Assembly (NCBI RefSeq): GCF_000019965.1
Contig: NC_010571.1
Location: 1,550,001-1,614,000 of the forward strand
Length of the DNA: 64,000 nt
Source of the DNA: Opitutus terrae PB90-1
Lineage (GTDB): Bacteria > Verrucomicrobiota > Verrucomicrobiia > Opitutales > Opitutaceae
Direction: 5' to 3'
Made by a program: the position numbers and the translations under genes. The notes beneath the pieces are model-generated. The model made no database searches. It saw only the letters and a program-made list of their open reading frames with translations, and had not been told where the DNA came from. Position 1 is the stretch's first letter. Each line of letters starts with the position of its first letter. Shown here one piece after another: positions 52,174 to 61,403 of the stretch.

Positions 52174-52452
52174 ATGGCACAAGAAGCTCTCGGCATGATT
52201 GAAACCAAAGGCCTCTGCGCTCTCCTCGAGGCCTCCGACGCCGCCCTCAAGGCGGCCAACGTTACGATGACCGGCTACGAAGCGATTGGCTCGGGCCACG
52301 TCGCCGGATTTTTCCGCGGCGACGTCGCGTCCCTCAAAGCCGCCGTCGATGCCGGCGCCGAAGCCGCCAAGCGCGTCGGCGAGGTCATCGCGGTCCAGGT
52401 GATTCCGCGGCCGCACGACGAGCTCAGCAACCTCGGCAAGTGGCTCGCGTGA
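52174..52452 (+). CDS. BMC-H shell protein 2
   Basis: 92 residues, single BMC-H domain. Begins [20 protein letters not shown]; core contains [19 protein letters not shown] and [15 protein letters not shown]. Differs from shell protein 1 at the pore region (GSGHVAG against GGGLVTI), so pores would differ in charge and size. It follows a GTAGGGCC repeat by about 70 bases. The two neighbouring genes are likely an old tandem duplication. Confidence 0.97.
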
Positions 52453-52484: not shown

Positions 52485-52532
52485 GTAGCCGGGGTCGTCG
52501 ACCCCGGCACCGGGCTCAACGAGCCCGGCTAC
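52485..52532. repeat. GTAGCCGGG...CCCGGCTAC palindrome
   Basis: GTAGCCGGGGTCGTCGACCC at the left, GAGCCCGGCTAC at the right; halves GCCGGGGTCGTCGACCCCGGC and GGGCTCAACGAGCCC are themselves palindromes. A degenerate copy lies inside the aldolase gene at 57439-57502. Confidence 0.7.
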
Positions 52533-52545
52533 ATCCGACCCTCCC

Positions 52546-53838
52546 TTGAAACTCCTCGTCGCCAATCTCGGCTCCACGTCGTTCAAATACCGGCTGTTTT
52601 CGCTCAACGGCGAACAGGCGGCATTGCTCGCACGCGGTGGCAGCGAACGCGTCACGGACTACGGCGCGGCGATCGATCACGCCCTGGGCGAGCTCGCTCG
52701 GGGCGGCCACGTGCAGCGCGGGGAGGAATTGGACGGCGTTGGGTTCAAGACCGTCTTCGGCGGCGAACTCACCGGCTGTGTACTCGCCGACGAGCGCGTC
52801 GAGCAGGCGCTGCTCGACACCGCCGATCTCGCACCGGCGCACAATCCGCCGTATGCCGCGGGACTGAAACTCTTCCGCGAGCGGCTGCCGTCGGTGCCGC
52901 GCGTGGCGCTGTTCGAGACCGCGTTTTATCAGTGGGTGCCGGATTATGCGCGCCGCTACGCGGTGCCCGAAGCCTGGCACGCGGCCGGCATTCGCCGCTT
53001 CGGTTTTCACGGCGCCAGTCACAAGTTCGTCGCGGAGCGCTCCGCCGAGCTGCTCGCTCGCGATGAAGTCGCCGCCGTCGCGCGCCGGCTTTACCTCGAC
53101 GGTCCCCGTCCGATCGCCGGCGCGCCGCTGCGCGTGATTTCCTGCCATCTCGGCGGCTCGAGCTCCGTCACCGCGATCGTCGACGGCGTCGCGGTGGGGA
53201 CGAGCATGGGCCTGAGCCCGCAATCCGGACTGGTGCAAAGCACGCGCGTGGGCGATCTCGATTCCGCCGCGCTCGGCTGCGCCATGCGCCGGCTCCAGCT
53301 CGCGCCCGCCGACGCCGAACGGCAGTTGGTAAAAGACAGCGGACTGCTCGGGCTCTCCGGCGTGAGCGGCGACCTGCGCGACATTCGCGCCGCTGCGGAT
53401 CAGGGCAACGCCCGAGCCCAGCTCGCGATCGACGTCTTCATCCACAGCATCCGCCACTGGATCGGCGCGTTCTGGTTCGAACTCGGCGGCTGCGACGCGC
53501 TCGTGTTCACCGGTGGCATCGGAGAAAACAACCCCTGGCTGCGCGAGGCCGTCTGCACCGGGCTGTGCGATCTCGGTCTCTTCCTCGACCCCGACGCCAA
53601 CGCGTCGTCACCGCCGGAGTTCAACCTCGCGGATCCGGATTCGCGCACGCGCGTGCTCGTCATTCCGGCGAACGAAGAACTGGTCGTCGCCCGCGAAGCC
53701 GCCCGGCTGATCGCCGCGCGAGCAATTCCGGCAGGGCCGCCGCTTGCCGCCGAGCCGCGACTGCCCGTGGACGGCAACCCTCCGACTCTTGACTCTCAAC
53801 TCTCAACTCCTCGTTCAACTCTCAGCTCTAGACTCTGA
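52546..53838 (+). CDS. ackA: Acetate/propionate kinase homologue
   Basis: 430 residues from a TTG start ([16 protein letters not shown]). Acetokinase fold with [22 protein letters not shown] and [13 protein letters not shown] landmarks; it would make acid plus ATP from acyl-phosphate, here probably lactate or acetate, on the cytoplasmic side. No encapsulation helix is evident. Odd: residues about 411-430 ([17 protein letters not shown]) are encoded by the CT-rich repeat that otherwise lies between BMC genes, so the normal C-terminus was probably near residue 400 and the repeat extended the frame. It lies between two shell genes with small gaps, so co-transcription is likely. Confidence 0.92.
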
Positions 53839-53875
53839 GCTCCGGACTCTTCCTCAACCCTCAACTCTCAACTCC
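53784..53875 (+). repeat. CT-rich module spanning the ackA stop
   Basis: CTCTCAACTCTCAACTCCTC, then CTCAGCTCTAGACTCT, then CTCAACTCTCAACT, straddling the last 18 codons of ackA and ending 7 bases before the next BMC-H ATG. Confidence 0.8.
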
Positions 53876-56754: not shown

Positions 56755-56820
56755 GCTCTCAACTCTCAACCTTAACTCTCAACCGGCTCCAGCTCTCAGC
56801 TCTAGACACTCAGCTCTCAG
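56755..56820 (+). repeat. CT-rich module before BMC-P 3
   Basis: CTCTCAACTCTCAACCTTAA, CTCTCAACCGGC, AGCTCTCAGCTCTAGACACT and CAGCTCTCAG, ending 9 bases before the ATG. Confidence 0.8.
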
Positions 56821-57253: not shown

Positions 57254-57288
57254 CCTCTCTCAATCCTCATCTCTCAACTCTCAACTTT
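57254..57288 (+). repeat. CT-rich module before the aldolase
   Basis: CTCTCTCAATCCTCATCTCT then CAACTCTCAACTTTCC, ending 3 bases before the aldolase ATG. Confidence 0.75.
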
Positions 57289-57291
57289 CCG

Positions 57292-58488
57292 ATGCCACAA
57301 GTTCTCACCGCTCGCGAAGTCCAGGACCTCGTCCGCGCCGGGCAGCCCGTGCCGGAAGGCGCGCTGCTGACGCCGTCCGCCCGCGACTTCCTCGAAGATC
57401 ACAAACGCACCGCCCGCGGCTCGTCGCGTCCCGCTCCTGTAGCCGGGTTCGTCGAACCCCGCTCGGCACCCTCCACCACGGGCTCATCGAGGCCGGCCAC
57501 AGCAGCACTCACCGTGGTTCCGGCCGCAGGTCTCTCAACCCTCAACTCTCAACTCTCAACTTCCTCGGCCCCGGCCACGCCCGACTACGAGTTTCGCTGG
57601 ACGCCCGGCTCCGATCCAAAGACGCCCGCCGAGATCGAGCGGTTCTTCCGCTCCGAGCCGATCGAAATCCTCAAGCGCAGGATCTGCGACATTGGCCGTC
57701 GGCTCTGGCTGAAGGACTACACCGACGGCAACGGCGGCAACATCACCATCCGCGTCGGTGACAACCTCGCGCTCTGCACGCCCACGCTCATCTGCAAGGG
57801 CTTCATGACGCCCGAGGACATGTGCCTCGTCGACCTCGACGGCAACCAGCTCGCCGGCACGCGCGTCCGCACGAGCGAAGCGAAGACGCATTTCGGGATC
57901 ATGAAACGGCAGCCCGCCGCGAAGGCCTGCGTGCACGCGCACCCGCCACACGCCACCGCGTTCGCGATCTCCAACGCGAAGATTCCTTCGGCCCTCATTC
58001 CGGAAGCGGAGGTGTTCCTTGGCCGGATCGGCATCGCCCAGTACGAAACGCCCGGCACGCCCGCCAATGCCGAGGAAGTCGGCCGCGTCGGCGTCGATCA
58101 CCAGGCGGTGCTCATGCAGAATCACGGCGTGATCGTGTGGGGCAAGGACGTCGAGGACGCCTACTGGAAAATGGAGAACATCGACGCCTATTGCCGCACG
58201 ATCGCGATCGCCGCGGGGCTCGGCACAGGCCTGCATCGTTTCGGTCCCGACAAGCTCAAGGATCTCATCGCCCTCCGCCAGAAGCTCGGCATGCCGGATC
58301 CGCGCGCGAACTTAAAGGAAGCGGAACTCTGCGACGACAACAGCGAGTTTCGCCCCGCCGTCGTCTGCCAGACTCCCGCCGGCTCGCTCGCCGCGCCCGC
58401 GGGCAACGAACCCGCCGCCAATCCCGAAGTCGAAGCGCTCGTGCAGAGACTCACCGAGGAGATCCTGCGCCAGCTGCAGAACAAGTAG
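57292..58488 (+). CDS. Class II aldolase (rhamnulose/fuculose-1-phosphate), encapsulated at both ends
   Basis: 398 residues. Zinc-dependent cleavage of a 6-deoxyketose-1-phosphate to DHAP and L-lactaldehyde, the entry step into the shell. Zinc ligands H215, H217 (HAHPPH) and H278 (QNHGV) are visible. Two amphipathic helices can target the shell: residues 4-19 (VLTAREVQDLVRAGQ) and the last 20 (EVEALVQRLTEEILRQLQNK). Odd: between the N-terminal helix and the catalytic core (from DYEFRW near 96) the linker is built from interspersed repeats in frame: residues 50-71 from a GTAGCCGGG palindrome and residues 82-91 (LSTLNSQLST) from the CT-rich module. So repeat DNA became linker peptide without breaking the frame. 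Confidence 0.93.
   Translation: MPQVLTAREVQDLVRAGQPVPEGALLTPSARDFLEDHKRTARGSSRPAPVAGFVEPRSAPSTTGSSRPATAALTVVPAAGLSTLNSQLSTSSAPATPDYEFRWTPGSDPKTPAEIERFFRSEPIEILKRRICDIGRRLWLKDYTDGNGGNITIRVGDNLALCTPTLICKGFMTPEDMCLVDLDGNQLAGTRVRTSEAKTHFGIMKRQPAAKACVHAHPPHATAFAISNAKIPSALIPEAEVFLGRIGIAQYETPGTPANAEEVGRVGVDHQAVLMQNHGVIVWGKDVEDAYWKMENIDAYCRTIAIAAGLGTGLHRFGPDKLKDLIALRQKLGMPDPRANLKEAELCDDNSEFRPAVVCQTPAGSLAAPAGNEPAANPEVEALVQRLTEEILRQLQNK
57439..57502. repeat. Degenerate GTAGCCGGG palindrome inside the aldolase gene
   Basis: GTAGCCGGGTTCGTCGAACC ... CGGGCTCATCGAGGCCGGCC, the same plan as the intergenic copy at 52485-52532. Encodes PVAGFVEPRSAPSTTGS in frame. Confidence 0.75.
57535..57562 (+). repeat. 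CT-rich module inside the aldolase gene
   Basis: CTCAACCCTCAACTCTCAAC and CTCAACT, read as LSTLNSQLST. It is identical in type to the modules that precede start codons. Confidence 0.8.
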
Positions 58489-58624: not shown

Positions 58625-58678
58625 GCTCTCAACTCTCAACCCTCAACTTTTCCTCGGCCAAGCTCTCAGCTCTTGGCC
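58625..58678 (+). repeat. CT-rich module before the dehydrogenase gene
   Basis: GGCTCTCAACTCTCAACCCT, CAACTTTTCC and AGCTCTCAGCTCTTGG, ending 9 bases before the ATG at 58687. Confidence 0.8.
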
Positions 58679-61360: not shown

Positions 61361-61403
61361 CTCTCAACTCTCATCCCTCAACTCTCAACTGGATCGAGTT
61401 CTC
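61361..61403 (+). repeat. CT-rich module before rhaA
   Basis: CTCTCAACTCTCATCCCTCA then ACTCTCAACT, ending 26 bases before the rhaA ATG (CTCAGCCCCCTCTCCC follows). Confidence 0.75.

Follow-up and report, generated by a model that had tools for sequence, protein, structure and literature searches.

Repeat DNA in the long linker of a microcompartment aldolase from Opitutus terrae

A class II aldolase of a microcompartment (BMC) locus in Opitutus terrae has an exceptionally long linker between its N-terminal helix and its catalytic core. This linker very probably combines an ordinary disordered tether of approximately 32 residues with another 31-32 residues that stem from two kinds of repeat DNA: a REP dimer, presumably copied by a RAYT transposase, and a CTCAACT heptamer array that presumably arose by slippage or copying. 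That repeat DNA was turned into linker peptide had been proposed in the original prediction and is supported by the genome-wide repeat families, by an excess of 23-47 residues over the linkers of 61 homologues and by the recurrence of this REP peptide, in an identical register, in other genes. The prediction had placed a degenerate palindrome at residues 50-71 and a CT-rich module at residues 82-91, in frame between helix and core. Both were confirmed, at 57439-57500 (residues 50-70) and 57532-57562 (residues 81-91), and the earlier residue numbers were correct to within one. Intragenic REPs have already been reported for Opitutus terrae, and the aldolase is a clear further example of them and not a new phenomenon. 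Its interest lies in the host sequence, a compartment cargo tether, and in the pairing of two repeat families within it.

Unless a sampled segment is named, coordinates refer to the window, the whole 64,000-nucleotide stretch analysed, which corresponds to positions 1550001-1614000 of the complete 5,957,605-base genome. The features discussed are as follows.

57292-58488, + strand: class II aldolase, 398 amino acids, signature enzyme of a PVM-type BMC locus (PF00596, E=6.1e-46, residues 130-303)
57292-57417, + strand: N-terminal segment, residues 1-42, a conserved putative encapsulation peptide upstream of the repeat
57388-57579, + strand: whole disordered linker, 64 amino acids (family mean 30.1, sd 4.5, maximum 41)
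57439-57500, + strand: degenerate inverted REP dimer, 62 nt with a 16-nt spacer, read as residues 50-70, VAGFVEPRSAPSTTGSSRPAT
57532-57562, + strand: CTCAACT heptamer array (CT module) of four CTCAAC(T/C) units, read as residues 81-91, LSTLNSQLSTS
57266-57286, + strand: leader CT module, with its end 5 nt upstream of the aldolase start codon
52485-52532, no strand assigned: intact 48-nt REP dimer, a member of the same family, in the intergenic space that separates the ORF at 52174-52452 from the acetate kinase ORF at 52546-53838

The aldolase locus and the length of the linker

The PF00596 aldolase gene lies beside BMC shell and core enzyme genes, the setting by which PVM-type BMC aldolases are recognized. 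Neighbouring genes belong to the PTAC (phosphotransacylase), EutN_CcmL shell-type, Aldedh, acetate kinase and Ldh (lactate/malate dehydrogenase) families, a composition also described for the PVM (Planctomycetes-Verrucomicrobia) fucose/rhamnose compartment locus (PMC4207490). Fuculose-phosphate aldolases are among the nearest solved relatives of the enzyme. Residues 1-39 were found across relatives, with 85% identity to the closest homologue over 39 residues and a median of 49% over 57 homologues. An AlphaFold model, moderate overall (mean pLDDT 62.9) and used here for the linker and N-terminal helices only, displayed confident helices at residues 7-15 and 28-42, with block-mean pLDDT of 81-94 over residues 1-40. 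Encapsulation peptides of BMC cargo comprise a short amphipathic helix and a disordered, poorly conserved linker (PMC12339742, PMC8217296). From its position and this literature, the N-terminal helix of the aldolase is likely an encapsulation peptide. The aldolase shares the arrangement of helix and disordered tether with these cargo proteins, but its linker is roughly twice the length of that of its homologues and has a traceable repeat origin.

Linkers were measured from the conserved N-terminal LTPSARD segment to the P-D-Y-E-F-x-W motif with which the core begins. Those of 61 homologues spanned 17-41 residues (mean 30.1, sd 4.5) as opposed to 64 in the aldolase described here, an excess unique among the 62 linkers. 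The closest homologue, 80% identical, has a linker of 37 residues. Without the 21 residues assigned to the REP and the 11 assigned to the CT module, the linker would measure 32, approximately the family mean, and cutting 21 and 11 residues from the linker raised the profile score against homologues by about 76-86 bits. Conservation of the linker in distant relatives, which would speak for an ordinary coding origin, was not seen among these homologues. Structure prediction agreed with a disordered linker, pLDDT falling below 50 over most of residues 45-96.

Comparison with homologues, suggested earlier as a check on insertion, made the excess length evident but did not place its boundaries at residues 50-70 and 81-91. 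A paired deletion scan of 21 and 11 amino acids did not single out these residues; the variants nearest to them took ranks of approximately 130-680 among 1407 and scored no more than about 5 bits below the top variant. Because linkers of this aldolase family carry little positional information, it is the DNA, and not protein alignment, that identifies the insert. Among the other aldolase genes fetched, including those of genomes that carry the same REP family, no REP with up to 3 mismatches was detected in a linker. At one other sampled aldolase locus (L030) a REP dimer is present outside the linker of the gene, and the only congeneric genome examined has neither this aldolase nor BMC shell proteins.

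Two repeat families in the linker

The first arm of the aldolase REP, GTAGCCGGGTTCGTCGAACCCCG at 57439-57461, has 1 mismatch to GTAGCCGGGNTCGTCGANCCCGG, the pattern seen in the intergenic copy at 52485. With its GTAG head and a GGGTTC/GAACCC stem, it fits the definition of a GTAG-type REP, a GC-rich imperfect palindrome of 20-40 bp. An inverted partner arm at 57478-57500, with a GTGG head and 3 mismatches from the family pattern, makes the repeat unit a 62-nt dimer. Conserved coding sequence lies on both sides of it, namely the N-terminus and the catalytic core. As 62 nt is not divisible by three, one flank base or a small indel must be included in the insertion. The dimer reads in frame as VAGFVEPR-SAPST-TGSSRPAT, and because 62 nt equals 47 + 15, both arms are in the register of a common 47-nt class of dimers (VAG... 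and ...GSSRPAT versus ...GSxSPAT). RNA folding gave z=-2.2 and -28.5 kcal/mol for the aldolase REP versus z=-7.2 and -37 kcal/mol for the intact copy at 52485. We infer that the palindrome has partly decayed with its reading frame still open. At window positions 57448/57456 the stem of the aldolase REP has a T-A pair. Of 77 sampled units, 68 have C-G or G-C at this position, and the T-A combination occurred in the aldolase copy only.

Matches to the GTAGCCGGGNTCGTCGANCCCGG pattern numbered 4 in the window versus 0.00 expected from shuffles, and 200 genome-wide versus 2 for a backwards control. In an 864-kb sample of real sequence, half of which was picked for REP density and in which proportions are consequently biased, we found 77 units at a limit of 3 mismatches, along with 30 inverted dimers; the reversed control yielded 3 single units and no dimers. 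Distinct dimers with intact ends totalled 32, with 0 in the control. RAYT-like Y1_Tnp transposase genes are present in the genome. One encodes a RAYT-like ORF of 190 amino acids with an MPDHVH motif (sampled segment L063, 1330-1899, + strand), and REPs flank it on both sides (approximately 1313-1335 and 1939-1961).

A two-heptamer pattern representing the CT module matched the window 13 times versus 0.01 expected, and 43 heptamer clusters were present in the 864-kb sample, as compared to 1 for a Markov control. For the heptamer, shuffled and Markov sequences served as controls, since the motif is nearly identical when read backwards, which renders a backwards control unusable. Whichever of the three sense frames is used, heptamer arrays read (STLNSQL)n, and each of the three antisense frames contains stops. 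Thus, an array can enter a gene in any frame, and the sense orientation of all arrays within called genes of the sample (15/15) is accounted for. The CT module of the aldolase had no RNA structure (z=-0.5). CTCAACT arrays were abundant in only 3 of 38 genomes, and literature searches limited to open-licence papers turned up no report of the heptamer in Opitutaceae.

Both sequences also occur outside the coding region in the places originally predicted, the REP as the intact dimer at 52485 and the CT module in BMC leaders before several start codons. Other heptamer arrays were observed shortly 5' of start codons, on the sense strand, at window positions 53795-53873, 54308, 56758-56784, 58628-58648 and 61363-61390, and also elsewhere in the genome. 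The C-terminal tail of acetate kinase is likewise formed by a CT module (window 53788-53827).

Origin of the linker peptide and related systems

We propose that a GTAG-type REP dimer was copied into the aldolase linker by the RAYT (TnpA-REP) transposase system, and that the CTCAACT array either grew by slippage or was copied from the leader arrays. Both repeats would have survived because they are stop-free in the frame used and lie in a linker that tolerates changes in length, joining a putative targeting helix to a folded domain, where added residues may have been neutral. In the frame used, the REP encodes a peptide rich in Pro, Gly, Ala, Ser and Thr. Decay of the palindrome after insertion would have proceeded with the frame kept open. 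On this model, the aldolase cleanly illustrates how a selfish DNA repeat can end up in the coding sequence of an apparently functional enzyme, in a place with little constraint on length. The protein also offers a naturally lengthened tether on a microcompartment cargo, open to direct testing.

Several other explanations of the linker were weighed. An ordinary coding origin, in which a GC-rich, low-complexity linker drifted into chance resemblance to the repeats, would agree with the variable, Ala/Pro/Ser-rich linkers of the family and with a profile that cannot place the insert. We consider it very unlikely in light of two inverted arms each with 3 or fewer mismatches, heptamer arrays of which 0.01 are expected per window, and a linker excess found in no homologue; with 30 inverted dimers in 864 kb of real sequence and 0 in the reversed control, chance resemblance was rejected. 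Still less credible is a REP that resides in the 5' leader of a gene whose true translation start is downstream. Di Nocera et al. caution, in the main text of their survey, that many N-terminal REPs represent misannotated leaders (PMC3733652), but in the aldolase the residues upstream of the REP are conserved, predicted to be helical and found across relatives, and a misannotated start was rejected on account of this conserved N-terminus.

Retention of the repeats as a nucleic-acid element, either an mRNA hairpin or a DNA site with the peptide as a by-product, is improbable. The REP does fold better than shuffles and has kept a T-A pair where the stem of most other units has C-G or G-C, but it folds far worse than the intact copy by both energy and z score, and the CT module is structureless. 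A strong retained RNA hairpin was rejected on the z scores of -2.2 and -7.2. Somewhat more room exists for a mixed origin, in which the REP was inserted and the CT module is native CT-rich linker sequence or a local slippage product. Alignment does not place residues 81-91 as an insertion, mobility of the CT module is putative, and heptamer arrays can expand by slippage. We nevertheless regard the mixed origin as doubtful, as the module contains the same heptamer and T/C variants as leader arrays across the genome and such arrays lie inside other genes, including those for an HrpA-like helicase and PurL. Derivation of both linker segments from repeat DNA remains our preferred reading.

Opitutus terrae had the most intragenic GTAG REPs among the species surveyed by Di Nocera et al. 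(2013), according to the main text of that study, with dimers or grouped repeats encoding 20-30 residues and with uvrA, DNA ligase and RNA helicase genes named as hosts; flexible linkers or loops were proposed to tolerate the REPs (PMC3733652). The aldolase fits the description given there completely. Shared properties are GTAG palindromes, mostly dimers, that lie in frame and encode 20-30 amino acids, and uvrA and DNA ligase appear in both gene sets. Main-text passages of the survey do not name aldolase or BMC genes and do not mention the CT module, and its supplement of target ORFs may list the aldolase. Rickettsia palindromic elements (RPE) resemble the aldolase REP as palindromic repeats in frame in protein genes, but the Rickettsia intragenic repeats treated in that survey belong either to the CGTC type or to the longer RPE-1, sequence families distinct from the GTAG type of the aldolase (PMC3733652). 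REPtrons, or RAYT systems, likewise have GTAG heads, inverted dimers and a Y1-type transposase gene between REPs. In contrast to these systems, the aldolase copy is degenerate, and mobility of the REPs in this genome is putative.

The closest parallel to the heptamer arrays that we compared is that of TAACTGA arrays in Beggiatoaceae (PMC4679880), which are also seven-base direct repeats located just 5' of start codons and in some instances inside ORFs. The peptide encoded in the stop-free orientation is LSVINYQLS in Beggiatoaceae and LSTLNSQLS here. The heptamers themselves differ, and the coding orientation is the reverse of that before start codons in Beggiatoaceae but the same in Opitutus terrae. 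By analogy with the TAACTGA arrays, the leader heptamer arrays described here are possibly translation-related.

REP dimers and CT modules in other genes

A total of 51 distinct REP dimers was collected, 14 of which had a codon-usage coding signal on both sides. All 14 were in the register GTA-GCC-GGG, as compared to 70% expected from open strand-frames (p about 0.007); the excess is modest, given that stops are absent from this register more often than from any other. The aldolase dimer is not among the 14 and is preceded by an N-terminal part of 49 codons only. Typical intragenic REP peptides read VAG-x-x-DPGPGS-x-SPAT, with VAGVADPGPGSTSPAT as examples. Dimers between Pfam domains were found in the following proteins.

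E2 acyltransferase: residues 190-205, between domains ending at 177 and starting at 213
SpoU methylase: residues 188-204, between domains ending at 172 and starting at 220
Flavodoxin reductase: residues 269-285, between domains ending at 232 and starting at 306
DNA ligase: residues 669-684, between domains ending at 596 and starting at 693
CobW: residues 369-384, between domains ending at 259 and starting at 479

In UvrA, a REP dimer lies just 3' of the UvrA interaction domain. Dimers were also located within domains, in an E3 dehydrogenase, an AcrB-type transporter and a pterin-binding enzyme. These findings extend the earlier account of REPs within genes by relating it to linkers between domains and to a single favoured reading register. 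A bolder extension, which we advance as speculation and think unlikely, is that the two unrelated repeat families jointly act as a recurrent source of linker peptide in this lineage, with REP dimers entering in one preferred register and the heptamer indifferent to frame, and that a longer tether may adjust how the aldolase packs inside its compartment.

PurL (L180, 3-3260, + strand) has two in-frame REP dimers, at amino acids 526-541 and 665-680, one of them just after a Pfam domain. A CT-like LSALSSQ module comes immediately after the first, at amino acids 546-552, and the aldolase is therefore not the sole gene with this combination. An HrpA-like helicase (L117, 9872-14572, + strand) has two in-frame CT modules, at approximately amino acids 508-519 and 770-779, the second of which falls inside the OB_NTP_bind match.
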